Part shown: piece after piece, positions 44,692 to 52,959 of the stretch
Position numbering within the stretch: position 1 is the first letter of the stretch
Layout: each line of letters opens with the position of its first letter
Source of the DNA: Leucothrix mucor DSM 2157
Lineage (GTDB): Bacteria; Pseudomonadota; Gammaproteobacteria; Thiotrichales; Thiotrichaceae
NCBI RefSeq assembly: GCF_000419525.1
Contig: NZ_ATTE01000001.1
Location: 2,934,501-2,998,500 of the forward strand
DNA: 64,000 nt
Direction: 5' to 3'
Notes under the pieces: generated by a model
Told to the model about the DNA's origin: nothing
Database searches by the model: none
What the model saw: the letters and a program-made list of their open reading frames with translations, nothing else
Program-made: the position numbers and the translations under genes

Positions 44692-46350
<1,659 letters not shown>

Positions 46351-46425
46351 TTACCTCTAAAAAACTTTAATGCTAAATCGTCGCTAACTGAGCAGGCTCA
46401 ACGAGCAACGGTCCAATAAATTTAT

Positions 46426-46716
46426 TTATGCTTCGATTACAGCCAGGATGTCATCTTCTTTCATCATCAGTAACTCTTCGCCGTCAACTTTGATAGTTGT
46501 GCCAGCATACTGACCGAATAACACCTTATCGCCCACTTTTACATCCATAGCGCGCACGTCGCCAGAATCAGTGATTTTGCCGTTACCCGCTGCAATAACT
46601 TCGCCACGGTTTGGCTTCTCTGTTGCACTATCAGGGATGATGATACCGCCGGCACTAGTACGTTCTTCTTCCATGCGACGTATCACAACGCGATCATGCA
46701 AAGGACGAATATTCAT
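46426..46716 (-). CDS. groS: Co-chaperonin GroES
   Basis: The 96-residue GroES lid protein: [10 protein letters not shown] start, mobile loop about 17-32 ([10 protein letters not shown]) and D-D-I-L-A-V-I-E-A end. First gene of the groESL operon. Confidence 0.98.
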
Positions 46717-46793
46717 GTTTTCACTCCATCAATTAGGGTTATAGATTTAAGACAAACGAAATGCTTTTAGCACTCCATGCTTGTGACTGCTAA

Positions 46794-46822
46794 TAATAGG
46801 GACGCACTTGAGCTTCTTCAAG
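46794..46822 (-). promoter_or_regulatory. Sigma-32 (heat-shock) type promoter for groESL
   Basis: On the minus strand a -35 CTTGAA (46822-46817) and, 15 nt on, CCCTATTA (46801-46794), close to the sigma-32 consensus CTTGAA...CCCCATNTA. It lies 77 bp before the groES start, between fxsA and groES. The T-rich stretch upstream (A-rich on the plus strand, around 46832-46852) could serve as an UP-like element or as the fxsA terminator. Confidence 0.75.
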
Positions 46823-46848
46823 AGAACCCAACTAAAAAAAATTAAAAT

Positions 46849-47331
46849 TTAATCTCGATCGATGCGTGCATCAGATTTACGACTGTATTCACCTTCATAC
46901 ACATCACCATCCGTCGGACCTGTTTGCTGGCCAGAAGCATTAAAACTTCCACCCATTACTGCAGCCCCACTGATCACGGAGCGCTTTATCATTTGCTCAA
47001 CAAGGAAGCGACGAGAGAACGGAAGCAGGCACAGAAAGCCCATGGTGTCGGTAACAAAACCAGGCGTCATCAACATCACTCCACCAACCAACAAGATAAT
47101 GCCTTCCAGCATTTCTTTTGCAGGCATAACACCCGCGGCTAGATTAGATTGAAATCGGGAAAGAGTTGAAAGCCCCTGCTGACGTAGCAAGTAGGCACCA
47201 ATCACTGCAGTCGCAATGACTAGAAGAATGGTCGGTATGGCACCAATCAGCGAGCCAACCTGTATTAACAGGTAGATTTCAATGATCGGAACAACCAGAA
47301 AGAAAAAAGCAAATATCGGAAATGTGCGCAC
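46849..47331 (-). CDS. fxsA: FxsA family membrane protein
   Basis: A 160-residue inner-membrane protein with three to four helices (about 5-22, 28-47, 75-97) and the family's P-G-F-V-T-D near 89 and L-L-P-F-S-R near 102. FxsA relieves F-factor exclusion of phage T7 in E. coli; its normal role is unclear. The polar C-terminus (125-160) is typical. It lies directly upstream of groESL, a neighbourhood also seen in other gammaproteobacteria. Confidence 0.92.
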   Translation of the reverse strand: MRTFPIFAFFFLVVPIIEIYLLIQVGSLIGAIPTILLVIATAVIGAYLLRQQGLSTLSRFQSNLAAGVMPAKEMLEGIILLVGGVMLMTPGFVTDTMGFLCLLPFSRRFLVEQMIKRSVISGAAVMGGSFNASGQQTGPTDGDVYEGEYSRKSDARIDRD

Positions 47332-47428
47332 GGCAGTGCCCTAAAATCAGTAATTATGAATCTTTATAATGATTCCATAGTTACTGATTTCAAGGCTCAT
47401 GGGTAAATTCTATTGCAGAACTGAGCGC

Positions 47429-49402
47429 TCAACTGGCTTCAGCAAGATAAACTTCTTCAAAAGCAATTGGCTTGCCACAGTGATACCCTTGAGCATAATC
47501 TACGCCCATTCGCTTCAATAATTGGCGGGTAATATCATTTTCAACAGACTCGGCAATAATGCTTAACTCCATTACCTGCCCTACTTTGTTGATTGCATCG
47601 ACCATGGCAGCATCCACACGATTTTTACTCATGCTGCGAATAAAGCTGCCGTCTATTTTAAGGTAACTAACTGGCAAATCACGCAAGTAACTTAATGATG
47701 AGATCCCACTACCAAAATCATCTAGCGAGCCAGAAGCACCAATAGCCGCCAGTTCACTTAACAAGGCTTGAGCACGCATAAAGTTAGCCAGTACGATTGA
47801 TTCTGAAATCTCAAAACACAACATCGATGCTGGAACGCCTCGATCTTCCAGTACCGCAGAAACAAATCCTACAAAGCTATCGTCGTTAACACTCTCGGCC
47901 GATAGGTTAATGGTAAACACCTGCTTAAATGCACTGTTTTGTACGAACTTACCTGCGGCAATGCTATTAATTGTCTTATTGACTACCCAGCGATCTAAGC
48001 TTGCCATTAAACTCAGGCGCTGTGCTGCAGGCATAAAGCTACCAGGCGCCAATATTTCGCCCTGATGGGATAGCCTAATTAATACTTCATACTGACACTC
48101 TAGACTCTCAGCATCCGATTCTATTTGTAGTGGCACAATTGGCTGGACGTATAACAGGAAGTTATCGTGATTGAGCGCACCTTTAAGCACGGCCTCCCAA
48201 TTCTCCCCACTATCCTGCTTATCATTTTTAGATGACTCATCTTCAGGATCTTTTACGTAAAGTTGATTACGGCCGCTTTTCTTAGCCATGTAACAAGCTT
48301 CATCAGCGCTTAGCATTAAACTACCCATATCAGTAATACGGGAACCAAAATCAAATTCCACAGCACCCAAACTCACGCCCACTTGAAAGGTATTCTGGTG
48401 CCAAGTGAATCGATAGTTTTGAATATCCTGCAAAATTCGACCCAAAATTATTTTGGCCCGATTAATTCCACAATTTGTCAGCAGTATTGCAAACTCATCA
48501 CCACCGGTTCTTGCCAGGCGGTCAGTACTTCGTACGCGCTTAGCAAACAGATCCGCGACCTGTTTCAATAATTCATCACCCGCAGCATGACCGCAAACAT
48601 CATTCACTGTTTTGAAGTGATCTAGGTCCATATAACAAAGCACATTGACGTTTTTATTCTCTTCACCATCAACCAGCGCCTTCTCTAGAAACTCCTGAAA
48701 ACTCTTTCGGTTATATAGCCCAGTCATTGAATCACGAGATGCCTGATTATAAAGCTCTTCCATCGCGGCACGATCATCAGTCACATCTTGAATAATCAGT
48801 GCCACATAATCGATATCGCCTTCTTCATTTTGGATGGGAGCCGTTTTAATCTTTACGTACTTGACCTCTGAGCGCTTACTCATCAGCTTGATGTCATGAA
48901 GGTCAAATACGCTATCGCGCTTCGAGAACTGCTCCATAACAATTTGTTTTAAGGTTGCAGCACCCTTCCCTCCTTGCACATTAACAACGTCTTCGATAGA
49001 GCAACCTTGCGCATCGGCAAGCTGCCAACCGGTCAGCGACATCGCCATTTCATTCAGATATTCGACTTCAAGCTGTTTATTAATACGAATAACGCCACCG
49101 ACAGCAGCGCCTAAAACGGCTTCGGTATTCTTAAAGGATAATCGGGAGGCCTCATGGGTGAGCCCCATAATATCCTGACTGCGCATGGAGTCAGATTTGA
49201 TTTTGTAAAATGCAATGCCGAGAGTGACTGCGATCAACAATAGCGCTGATTGCACCATGGGTAAGTAAACCTGAACTCCGGATATCCTATTTATATCTAA
49301 CAATTGCCAGCCTGAAAGCAGCACACTAAGTACTACTAGAAGAACCAGCGTCATAACAGGCATGACATTATTTTGCTCAGATTGGACATTTCGGAGTTTC
49401 AT
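47429..49402 (-). CDS. Membrane PAS-GGDEF-EAL c-di-GMP enzyme
   Basis: A 657-residue protein with two N-terminal helices (about 14-32 and 45-67), a PAS domain (about 88-210), a GGDEF domain (about 225-385) and an EAL domain (about 405-655). GGDEF is intact (T-G-G-D-E-F) with an inhibitory R-S-T-D site five residues before it. The EAL signature reads E-V-L, but the metal-binding residues remain: I-N-L-S, F-E-I-S-E, D-D-F-G, L-K-I-D, A-E-S-V-E and Q-G-Y-H. It may make and break c-di-GMP, with the balance set by the PAS signal. Transcribed alone. Confidence 0.93.
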   Translation of the reverse strand: MKLRNVQSEQNNVMPVMTLVLLVVLSVLLSGWQLLDINRISGVQVYLPMVQSALLLIAVTLGIAFYKIKSDSMRSQDIMGLTHEASRLSFKNTEAVLGAAVGGVIRINKQLEVEYLNEMAMSLTGWQLADAQGCSIEDVVNVQGGKGAATLKQIVMEQFSKRDSVFDLHDIKLMSKRSEVKYVKIKTAPIQNEEGDIDYVALIIQDVTDDRAAMEELYNQASRDSMTGLYNRKSFQEFLEKALVDGEENKNVNVLCYMDLDHFKTVNDVCGHAAGDELLKQVADLFAKRVRSTDRLARTGGDEFAILLTNCGINRAKIILGRILQDIQNYRFTWHQNTFQVGVSLGAVEFDFGSRITDMGSLMLSADEACYMAKKSGRNQLYVKDPEDESSKNDKQDSGENWEAVLKGALNHDNFLLYVQPIVPLQIESDAESLECQYEVLIRLSHQGEILAPGSFMPAAQRLSLMASLDRWVVNKTINSIAAGKFVQNSAFKQVFTINLSAESVNDDSFVGFVSAVLEDRGVPASMLCFEISESIVLANFMRAQALLSELAAIGASGSLDDFGSGISSLSYLRDLPVSYLKIDGSFIRSMSKNRVDAAMVDAINKVGQVMELSIIAESVENDITRQLLKRMGVDYAQGYHCGKPIAFEEVYLAEAS

Positions 49403-49723
49403 AACTATGTTTTTCTTATTTTTTTAGTTACTCCAACCCTACCGATTTAAGTGGAATTTTACTACGTTTTTCTCAAGGATTCCGACGAGCTGCCAGCGAC
49501 AACCCTCTTCTGCAAACAAACTTCAATATCAAACTTATCCTCAAGGTGATTAGACAGAATTAATTCAATTACTATAGCAAATAATAAGAACAGTACAAAC
49601 TGACAGGGCTATTTAGCCAAAACAATAATAATAGACCCATTTCAAATAAGTCACTTGACTTTAATTAGCATGTATTTATAAATTAAGACTCTATTTACCA
49701 ACCATTCAAGTATTAAATTAAAT
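49403..49723. other. 321-bp AT-rich intergenic region upstream of the H-NS-like gene
   Basis: No open frame or RNA gene is evident. The right half (49620-49720) is especially A+T-rich. It separates the divergent c-di-GMP enzyme and H-NS-like gene. AT-rich DNA next to an H-NS gene could allow autoregulation (inference). Confidence 0.5.
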
Positions 49724-50041
49724 ATGAGCACTATTGATTACTCTACATTAAGTCACTCACAACTCGTTCAAATGCTGAAAGAGATCCCAGTTGAAATTAA
49801 AAAGCGTGAGAAAGTTGCAAAGCGTGATTTAATTCGCAAGATCGAGCAATTAGCAGAAGAGTCCGGCTTTAGCCTTGATGAAGTAATGGCGACTACTAGC
49901 AAGCCAAGCACTAAAAAAGCGGCGCCTAAATATGCTAACCCAGAAAATGCAGAGCAAACATGGACTGGCCGCGGAAGAAAGCCACACTGGGTTCTCGATG
50001 CGTTAGAAACAGGTAAAACACTGGAAGATCTTGCTATCTAA
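49724..50041 (+). CDS. H-NS family histone-like nucleoid protein
   Basis: A 105-residue H-NS-type protein. The N-terminal helical oligomerisation part (residues 10-50: Q-M-L-K-E-I-P-V-E-I-K-K-R-E) precedes a linker and the C-terminal DNA-binding domain with W-T-G-R-G-R-K-P-H-W-V (about 82-92), the AT-hook-like loop of the family. It probably silences AT-rich genes and bridges DNA. It is shorter than E. coli H-NS (137) and closer to the short proteobacterial forms. No strong Shine-Dalgarno before the ATG. Confidence 0.9.
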   Translation: MSTIDYSTLSHSQLVQMLKEIPVEIKKREKVAKRDLIRKIEQLAEESGFSLDEVMATTSKPSTKKAAPKYANPENAEQTWTGRGRKPHWVLDALETGKTLEDLAI

Positions 50042-50090
50042 GTAATCTACCAGCAAGACAACACCGCTCAAAATAGCTTCAAGCAAAGAC

Positions 50091-50153
50091 TTGCTGGCAA
50101 TGAACACGTTGCCAGCAAATGCGGCGCTGACTACAAACCGCTGTAGCCAGCGC
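50091..50153 (+). other. Two tandem stem-loops after the H-NS-like gene
   Basis: Stem 1 is a perfect 10-bp repeat TTGCTGGCAA/TTGCCAGCAA (50091-50100, 50109-50118; 8-nt loop). Stem 2 is GCGCTGACTACA/TGTAGCCAGCGC (50124-50135, 50142-50153; one mismatch, 6-nt loop). No U-tract follows. They could stabilise the upstream mRNA, form a Rho-assisted end, or belong to a small RNA. A TATAAT occurs at 50167-50172. Confidence 0.6.
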
Positions 50154-50324
50154 GACGGGGTTTCACTATAATCACTGTCTAAAATATAACAAAGTGTGGA
50201 TTTTTAACACGTCAGGCATCCAAGCCGTAGCGCTTATCGTAAAGGATAGCAACGCGGATAAATAACTGACTCATCCACCAATAATCGAAAACAATGGACT
50301 GTATCCCTACAGGATTTGTAAGAC

Positions 50325-52805
50325 ATGATAAAAGCAATACTCGCGGTACTCTTCGTACTTATGTCTCCCAGCTTTGCGGCGGCTGCCACAGTCGAACCGT
50401 TACGCCCTAGTGAAGCCTTCAAGCTCTCTACCGAAGTTATAGACGAAAACACCATTCGCGCGACTTGGGATATCACTGAAGGTTACTATCTTTATCGAGA
50501 CAAGGTCGACTTCGTTAGCGAGACCGAATCGGTAACCGTTAACGACTACAACAAACCTGCCGGCAAGCAAAAAAAAGATCCAACTTTCGGCGATGTTGAA
50601 ATTTATCGTGGACAAGTAAGCTTTAATCTTCTGCTGGACCGCCAAAATCCTGACGCACAAATATTAAAGTTACTTAATAAATCACAAGGTTGCGCTGACC
50701 TTGGTATTTGTTACCCACCTCAAAAACAAACCATAGAAATTAAACTTCCGGAAAAAGAAGTTACGGTCGATGCGATTGCTTCTATCTCAGGAATAACCAA
50801 CACTCCGGATAAGCCATTCTTTTTAGCAGATCAAGCTGAGCCAACCGGCATTAGCTCAATTAGTGGCATAACAGGTATTGCTGATATTACCGGAGGCAGT
50901 GCCAATACCGCTGACGAATTATTACCTCCCGACGAAGCTTTTCGATTTGATATTGCAGCCCTGGATGGCCAAACGCTGACCGCACGCTGGAATGTAACTC
51001 CGGGTCATTACCTATATCAAAATAAAATGAAGTTTTCGATCGTCGATGCACCAAGTGGCGTCACTCTCAGCGAACCAGACTTACCTGAAGGTCATGGCTA
51101 TGACGACCCCTACTTTGGCTATGTTGTTACATACGAAGAAGATGTTGAAATAAAAGTCCCTGTAAACGGCATTAGCAATAAACTAACCATTAAAACGGAA
51201 TACCAAGGCTGCTCTAAAGTCGCAGGCATCTGTTATCCACCTCAATTCAAAACTGAGATTGTCGATTTATCATCATTTAATCCAGTTGCAGATTCAGCTC
51301 CTGATGCAGAGATAACAAAAGAAGCACCTCAAAGCGAAAGCACTTCATTAACTACTGCAACTACTGCAACTACTGCAACTACTGCAACTACTGCAACTAC
51401 TGCAACTACTGCAACTACTGCAACTACTGCAACTACTGCAACTACTGCAGTTTCGACACCACCTGAGTCAGAGCAAAGCACGCTAAATGATATATTAAAG
51501 AATAAAGGTATATTTACCATCATCGGCGCTTTCTTCGTTGCAGGACTGCTTTTAACATTCACTCCCTGTGTGTTCCCAATGATTCCAATCTTGTCTGGTA
51601 TTATCACCGGCCAAAGCGGAACGCCATCACGCGGCAAATCTTTCTTACTGTCATTAGCCTATGTAGTACCGATGGCATTAACCTATGCCCTGGCTGGCGT
51701 TATTGCCGGATACACAGGTGCTAATCTACAAATTGCCTTGCAAAACCCTTGGGTTATTAGCATTTTTGCCCTGCTGTTTGTCGCGTTGTCATTCTCCATG
51801 TTTGGCTTCTACGAATTGCAAATGCCAAGCGCCATTCAAAACCGACTAAATTCAATCAGCAACGGCCAACGTGGTGGCAGCCTAGTTGGCGCGGGCATTA
51901 TGGGCGTGCTATCTGCGCTAATCGTTGGCCCTTGCGTCACTGCCCCATTAATTGCAGCGCTGACTTACATCGCCAATACTAAAGATCTCGTTTTAGGCGG
52001 AGTCTCATTGTTTATGCTGGGCATGGGAATGGGCGTCCCACTCTTATTAATAGGTATCACGGCAGGTAGCGTTCTACCCAGAGCTGGCGCATGGATGGAT
52101 ACCGTTAAGCACATCTTCGGTGTATTGATGCTGGGCTTAGCCATCTGGATGCTTGACCGTATTGTTGCCCCTCAGATTACATTACTACTAACCGGTATTT
52201 TGCTAATAGGCAGTGCAATCTACTTGGGAGCAACTGATACGCTGACAGAATCTTCGGGCAATATGAAGCGCTTATGGAAGAGTTGCGGACTGGTATCTCT
52301 ATTATTAGGCGCAATCCTGATTATTGGCGCGGCTTCTGGCAGCAAAAGCTACTTCTCACCATTAGCTGGATTGACGGCAGCCAATGCCACCAACAACACA
52401 CAGCCAACACCAAACCAAACAGCCCACACCAGTGGCGTACAGTTTAAGCGCATTAAAAACCTCTCTGATCTTCAGACGACCTTAGATCAAGCTGCCGCAT
52501 CTCAGAAACCAGTGATGTTTGATTTCTACGCCTACTGGTGCCTACCCTGTCGCGCAATGGAAGAAGAGGTATTTAACAATGCAGGAACCGCTAAGTTACT
52601 GGGCGATACGATTGTGATCCAAGCCGATGTCACTGCGGTAGACGATGAAGATACCGAGCTCATGAAAGCCATGGGTGTGATTGGTCCACCACAAATTCTG
52701 TTCTACGATCGCAATGGCAAGGAAAACAAACCCTATCGCGTTGTTGGAGAAATGGACCTTGAAACCTTCCAGTCGCATGTAAAACAGTTCCTAACCACAC
52801 TGTAA
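50325..52805 (+). CDS. dsbD: Thiol:disulfide interchange protein DsbD with two N-terminal domains
   Basis: An 826-residue version of DsbD, which carries electrons from cytoplasmic thioredoxin to periplasmic DsbC/CcmG-like partners. After a signal peptide (1-20) there are two nDsbD domains: residues about 25-145 with Cys123/Cys129 (G-C-A-D-L-G-I-C-Y-P-P) and about 200-330 with Cys296/Cys303 (G-C-S-K-V-A-G-I-C-Y-P-P). A Thr-Thr-Ala repeat (343-375) precedes eight membrane helices with the redox pair in T-P-C-V-F-P-M and G-P-C-V-T-A. The C-terminal thioredoxin domain has C-L-P-C (739-742). E. coli DsbD has one nDsbD domain and 565 residues. Confidence 0.93.
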   Translation: MIKAILAVLFVLMSPSFAAAATVEPLRPSEAFKLSTEVIDENTIRATWDITEGYYLYRDKVDFVSETESVTVNDYNKPAGKQKKDPTFGDVEIYRGQVSFNLLLDRQNPDAQILKLLNKSQGCADLGICYPPQKQTIEIKLPEKEVTVDAIASISGITNTPDKPFFLADQAEPTGISSISGITGIADITGGSANTADELLPPDEAFRFDIAALDGQTLTARWNVTPGHYLYQNKMKFSIVDAPSGVTLSEPDLPEGHGYDDPYFGYVVTYEEDVEIKVPVNGISNKLTIKTEYQGCSKVAGICYPPQFKTEIVDLSSFNPVADSAPDAEITKEAPQSESTSLTTATTATTATTATTATTATTATTATTATTATTAVSTPPESEQSTLNDILKNKGIFTIIGAFFVAGLLLTFTPCVFPMIPILSGIITGQSGTPSRGKSFLLSLAYVVPMALTYALAGVIAGYTGANLQIALQNPWVISIFALLFVALSFSMFGFYELQMPSAIQNRLNSISNGQRGGSLVGAGIMGVLSALIVGPCVTAPLIAALTYIANTKDLVLGGVSLFMLGMGMGVPLLLIGITAGSVLPRAGAWMDTVKHIFGVLMLGLAIWMLDRIVAPQITLLLTGILLIGSAIYLGATDTLTESSGNMKRLWKSCGLVSLLLGAILIIGAASGSKSYFSPLAGLTAANATNNTQPTPNQTAHTSGVQFKRIKNLSDLQTTLDQAAASQKPVMFDFYAYWCLPCRAMEEEVFNNAGTAKLLGDTIVIQADVTAVDDEDTELMKAMGVIGPPQILFYDRNGKENKPYRVVGEMDLETFQSHVKQFLTTL
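51351..51449 (+). repeat. Tandem repeat of 11 x 9 bp in dsbD
   Basis: Eleven perfect copies of ACTACTGCA, in frame, encode (Thr-Thr-Ala)x11 between the second N-terminal domain and the membrane domain. The perfect repetition suggests recent expansion and length variation between strains. A change by whole units keeps the frame, so this would alter linker length rather than switch the gene off. Confidence 0.95.

Positions 52806-52882: not shown

Positions 52883-52959
<77 letters not shown>

Follow-up and report, generated by a model that had tools for sequence, protein, structure and literature searches.

A DsbD with two alpha heads in Leucothrix mucor

The window, the whole stretch of 64,000 nucleotides of L. 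mucor DNA that was analysed, carries a gene for an 826-residue DsbD on the forward strand (50325..52805; all features of the gene given below lie on this strand). The gene product matched the whole-protein model NCBIfam PRK00293 (DsbD) with 659.1 bits against a cut-off of 330, and it is the only DsbD_TM match of the genome. Its hydrophobic N-terminus, MIKAILAVLFVLMSPSFAAAA, was judged by eye to be a likely signal peptide (50325..50387). This is followed by a distal DsbD-alpha head (head 1; residues 23-139, 50391..50741) with Cys 123/129 and the cap-loop region DPTFG, a likely disordered inter-head linker (50742..50912; 59 aa by the head model that was built in this analysis) and a proximal DsbD-alpha head (head 2; residues 197-311, 50913..51257) with Cys 296/303 and the cap-loop region DPYFG. 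The linker from head 2 to the membrane part contains a perfect 9-bp tandem repeat of 11.1 copies, read as (Thr-Thr-Ala)n (51350..51449). The DsbD_TM membrane part with Cys 415 and Cys 537 (51513..52166; Pfam DsbD_TM over residues 397-614, 322.4 bits) precedes a thioredoxin-like gamma domain with CLPC at 739/742 (52434..52784), which was aligned by phmmer with E. coli cDsbD (2fwe over residues 700-820, E 1.5e-25; 1uc7 over residues 704-820).

A sequence-only reading of this DNA had placed a DsbD with two N-terminal redox domains, each with a cysteine pair, at 50325-51349. The start of that range is correct, but its end falls inside the gene, where the 9-bp repeat begins. The cysteine pairs and their spacings had been read correctly: the translated ORF has cysteines at 123, 129, 296, 303, 415, 537, 654, 739 and 742, and the head pairs are CADLGIC (123/129, spacing 6) and CSKVAGIC (296/303, spacing 7). 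In a whole-genome search, Pfam DsbD_N (cut-off 25 bits) matched head 1 with 98.8 bits (E 8.1e-28) and head 2 with 103.6 bits (E 2.6e-29), both far beyond chance, and phmmer aligned residues 197-316, which span head 2, with the E. coli nDsbD chain 3pfu (E 6e-15). With an alpha head and its cysteine pair present twice, DsbD_TM with two cysteines, a C-terminal CXXC domain of thioredoxin fold and the whole-protein match, the protein is, as far as its sequence tells, an ordinary DsbD core (membrane part plus thioredoxin-like CLPC domain) with two DsbD-alpha heads. The membrane cysteines 415/537 and the gamma cysteines 739/742 were invariant among 45 aligned proteins.

Predicted fold of the heads and length of the linkers

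We predicted the structure of both heads with AlphaFold2, using an alignment of 44 relatives. The mean pLDDT was 87.8 and the head blocks were mostly above 93; block means ranged from 80 to 98 in head 1 and from 89 to 98 in head 2, and were 46-58 in the piece between the heads. The strand order was identical in head 1 and head 2, and a full-length model (residues 20-826, mean pLDDT 81.0) contained the same heads. Both heads are thus predicted with high confidence as intact domains. By VIA-align, head 1 was superimposed on nine nDsbD entries with Z 16.0-16.9 and an rmsd of 1.5-2.1 A, and on an NMR entry with Z 13.1; the nDsbD rows of this comparison all fall on head 1, and head 2 was assigned by Pfam, by phmmer and by its predicted order of strands. 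A chain with tandem heads was not found in the PDB, where the sequence matches to the heads were chains of 125-151 residues named DsbD.

In the models, long linkers of low confidence lie on both sides of head 2. The window protein has 102 aa between head 2 and the TPC of its membrane part, against a median of 63 in 88 two-headed frames. The repeat in this linker has 100% matches across its copies, which suggests a recent expansion, and a run of at least five identical residue triplets was present in no other frame of the relatives' locus set. A change in copy number would preserve the frame and alter the length of the linker.

Two-headed DsbD are common in the family and the class, and three heads occur

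The head model, applied to loci L001-L142, yielded 109 two-headed frames (a number that counts the window twice and includes some near copies), 31 one-headed and two three-headed frames; in the wider locus set it found nothing in L217, L218, L223, L225 and L226, where Pfam matched. In the window's family, an open frame with two or more heads was present in 50 of the 60 sampled genomes, the window's own included; five had single-head frames only and five were without a match; in this count, the second head of G058 and one of the three heads of G049 are cut by contig ends. Among 82 genomes of the class Gammaproteobacteria (own included, one genome per family save two), 29 were two-headed in one frame, 46 had matches without such a frame and seven had no match. 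In the 46 'single-headed' genomes, DsbD_N matched but never twice in one frame; among them are G070, whose sole match is weak (29 bits, in an 829-aa frame that is perhaps ScsB-like), and G127, which has two separate single-head genes. The statement that a usual DsbD has one head therefore holds for E. coli and, among the 75 class genomes that bear DsbD_N, for 46 but not for the other 29. In a sample of 120 genomes of the phylum, DsbD_N matched in 62, and the two-headed frames, those of G191, G277, G068 and the window's own genome, were confined to the window's class.

Two-headed relatives were found in records named Leucothrix, Cocleimonas, Sedimenticola, Sulfuricella, Thiomicrospira, Methylobacter and Lysobacteraceae. 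This spread through family and class rules out an oddity of the L. mucor genome alone. The two-headed DsbD of Leucothrix arctica (L033) has the same architecture, with 58% identity in the best segment and both cysteine pairs kept, but lacks the 9-bp linker repeat of the window protein. A Thiomargarita record (L108, 865 aa) and the family genome G053 (L144, 1001 aa) encode three-headed forms with a cysteine pair in every head, and G049 (L146) is a third such case, cut by a contig end. The two complete three-headed proteins share with the window form a first head of the distal type described below and differ from it by the third head.

Some genomes have extra single-headed frames of ~630-700 aa beside their two-headed DsbD (G013:C98, L224; G007:C29; G055:C1, L227; G001:C25, L228). 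None was present in the L. mucor genome in the Pfam DsbD_N search. DsbD_N was also seen in short frames near DsbE/TlpA-like matches (G125:C97:63021-63377, 221 aa; G126:C1:232672-233022, 223 aa), with no DsbD core in the frame.

Both cysteine pairs are kept

The cysteine pair was seen in all 109 distal heads and in all but one of the 109 proximal heads; the exception (L014) is cut by a contig end. After reduction to 72 non-redundant two-headed proteins (<70% identity), both cysteines were 100% kept in both heads. The two N-terminal redox domains of the sequence-only reading are thus borne out by sequence, conservation and structure prediction alike. The different spacing of the two pairs is ruled out as a sign of different function: among 31 single heads, 15 have a spacing of 6 and 16 a spacing of 7.

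In E. coli nDsbD, the cap-loop region is D68-E69-F70-Y71-G72; F70 packs on the disulfide and the cap loops shield the cysteines (excerpts of PMC7347389). In the 72 two-headed proteins, the positions of D68 and G72 were 99-100% kept in distal and proximal heads, and the position of Y71 (column 65) was F in 92% of the distal and 88% of the proximal heads. The F70 position was variable, with F in 53% of the distal and 25% of the proximal heads.

Two old head types

In a tree of 170 heads, built by a quick method from few columns, one starred branch (SH-aLRT 97) united 64 of the 72 distal heads with two heads of three-headed proteins and two single heads. The proximal and the remaining single heads lay outside this branch and were poorly resolved. 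Profiles of the distal and proximal types, applied to held-out heads whose relatives remained in the training set, were right for 70 of 72 distal and 67 of 72 proximal heads. On 20 further two-headed proteins without close similarity to the training set, the calls were correct for all 20 distal heads and for 14 of the 20 proximal heads, and in 19 of the 20 the distal head scored more distal than its partner. Scores within 5 bits of zero were obtained for 21 of 44 single heads and for 5 of the 40 heads of these further proteins.

The head types differed in 23 of 116 columns beyond a label-swap null (95% point of the maximum over 300 within-protein swaps, with kinship still included). Several of these columns lie beside the active site and others do not; they include the residue 3 before the first cysteine and three residues between the pair. 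The strongest differences were in columns 72, 41-42, 97 and 102. Column 72 (E. coli R78) was R in 71% of the distal and H in 40% of the proximal heads, column 97 (E. coli Y100) was S in 57% versus Y in 82%, and column 102 (E. coli D105, between the cysteines) was D in 89% of the distal heads versus E in 44%, D in 26% and K in 12% of the proximal heads.

The three-headed protein of G053 has a distal-type head 1, and its heads 2 and 3 are of the proximal type and 43% identical to each other. In L108, head 1 is of the distal type and heads 2 and 3 (46% identical) score clearly as neither type. Both heads of L023 group together and with the single head of L031 in the 170-head tree, and a re-duplication or conversion of a head is the likely origin. 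Thiobacillus thioparus (L099) has a single head that falls among the distal heads, which would fit a loss of the proximal head. It seems that an old duplication gave rise to two head types that mostly stayed distinct, and that losses, gains and one or more re-duplications (L023) followed. In a tree of the DsbD core, head number changes 19 times, of which at least 3-4 are forced; its backbone is weak, it was used just for the frequency of head-number change, and six rows with short or odd cores were left out.

Candidate partners

The L. mucor genome has one DsbC_N match, six DSBA matches and nine matches to TIGR00385 (DsbE/TlpA-like), one of which passes the cut-off. In the 75 class genomes with DsbD_N, the median number of DsbE/TlpA-like matches was 9 in the 29 two-headed versus 5 in the 46 other genomes (Mann-Whitney p 4.4e-7). 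Two-headed genomes are also larger (median 3.1 versus 2.45 Mb, p 4e-4). The surplus was seen per Mb (p 0.002), in a subset of 2.4-4.6 Mb with DsbC_N (medians 10 versus 6 in 22 two-headed versus 23 other genomes, p 4.5e-4) and in a regression with genome size (+3.62 matches in two-headed genomes, s.e. 0.70). It is inseparable from kinship, because only three independent pairs on starred branches are available; this pair analysis left out L171 (G068, on a branch of ~8-10) and L212. DsbC_N was present in 28 of 29 two-headed versus 35 of 46 other class genomes (p 0.02), and the number of DSBA matches did not differ in the 75 genomes (means 3.03 versus 2.72, p 0.34).

A TlpA-like frame, called by a motif, lay no more than 250 bases from the end of the DsbD frame in 17 of the 30 two-headed rows and in 13 of the 42 single-headed rows. 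In the window no such frame adjoins dsbD, and the next features are a tRNA-Met gene (52883-52959) and rimP. A dedicated partner gene next to dsbD, as found in many relatives, is absent from the window.

Probable parallel outlets and other readings

In DsbD, electrons are passed from the gamma domain to the head and from the head to the partners (part of PMC3961690). The window protein has two complete heads; both cysteine pairs are strictly kept among its relatives, and the divergence of the two head types is lasting. The flow of electrons in the window protein, a parallel rather than a serial order of the heads and their choice of partners are inferred. We favour, with a probability of roughly 60%, an electron hub with the reductase head present twice, as parallel outlets on one gamma domain that serve partly different partners. 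Electrons from cytoplasmic thioredoxin would reach the gamma CLPC (739/742) by way of the membrane pair 415/537, and the gamma CLPC would reduce either head. Each head, on its long linker, would then be a separate outlet to periplasmic thioredoxin-fold proteins, and the partners of the two heads, among them DsbC, CcmG and other TlpA-like proteins, would be partly different. Two parallel outlets are the simplest working, since both heads are intact and the long linkers are likely disordered. Partly different partners are suggested over pure dosage by the separation of the head types, and the long-kept type difference together with the DsbE/TlpA-like surplus (which is not separable from kinship) makes two partners for two heads, as proposed in the sequence-only reading, likelier.

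A less probable but serious alternative is that the two heads are equivalent and increase the rate or capacity of one outlet to the same partners. A larger number of thioredoxin-fold clients would mean more load, three-headed forms occur in the same family and in the Thiomargarita record, and the heads of L023 are near neighbours in the head tree. The distal type is, however, still recognisable across families, and the heads differ in several residues next to the active site, neither of which favours equivalent heads. The linear order along the chain and the long linkers would also allow a serial relay, from the gamma domain to head 2, from there to head 1 and on to the partners, which would have a longer reach. 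We consider this improbable. In its cysteine pair and conserved motif, head 1 does not differ from heads that interact directly with the gamma domain, and we know of no precedent for electron exchange between two Ig-fold heads. Shielding of the cysteines by cap loops, as in E. coli nDsbD (excerpts of PMC7347389), likewise argues against a relay.

By analogy with ScsB, one head might be a scaffold or cap. ScsB has a tandem Ig-fold N-terminus in which one domain is without redox work, and the N-terminal ScsB structure 6c29 of Proteus mirabilis aligns with head 1 (Z 10.8 over 109 residues). The alpha-beta-gamma layout is shared as well: ScsB has an N-terminal alpha, a membrane beta and a C-terminal gamma domain (part of PMC8900818). 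A redox-inactive head is nevertheless very improbable in view of the two pairs kept in 72 of 72 non-redundant two-headed relatives. Unlike in ScsB, both N-terminal domains of the window protein match DsbD_N and retain a cysteine pair, and head 1 is closer to nDsbD (Z 16-17) than to 6c29, so that a ScsB-like N-terminus was not found in head 1.

Some observations weigh against the parallel outlets with partly different partners that we favour. The DsbE/TlpA-like surplus is inseparable from kinship and goes along with larger genomes, and no TlpA-like frame adjoins dsbD in the window. At the position of E. coli F70, which is variable in the relatives, head 1 of the window protein has T and head 2 has Y. 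Five of 72 proximal heads in the held-out test and six of 20 in the further proteins were not called proximal, and the similarity of the L023 heads is as expected of copies made anew. Head number switches often, which indicates that a second head is not indispensable. Beyond the two outlets, DsbD might be a modular hub in which the number of heads (one to three) is tuned to the periplasmic clients, the distal head being dedicated to the TlpA/CcmG-like thioredoxins, which are numerous in two-headed genomes, and the proximal head keeping the DsbC work; this extension is speculative and we regard it as rather unlikely. A single head that serves several partners is hard to dissect. Proteins whose head has become two lasting types in the course of evolution are natural pairs for this question; two-headed forms are present in 29 of the 75 DsbD_N-bearing class genomes.

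Relation to known DsbD

E. coli DsbD (b4136) shares the alpha head, the membrane part and the gamma domain with the window protein and has one head by the head model, versus two. The sequence-only reading had allowed for the form being already well described; in titles and the starts of abstracts, among the matches listed, no two-headed DsbD was named, and most subscription papers lie outside this scope. The architecture appears to be present but unremarked in sequence databases, and we file the two-headed protein as a variant form of DsbD that is new as to description.

The genes around dsbD in the window are an H-NS-like gene, a GGDEF/EAL gene, tRNA-Met, rimP and nusA. groEL and fxsA (44692-50325) lie a few kb from dsbD, and dsbD is near both genes in E. 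coli, too. Between dsbD and fxsA, E. coli has cutA, dcuA and aspA; the window has the GGDEF/EAL and H-NS-like genes instead.
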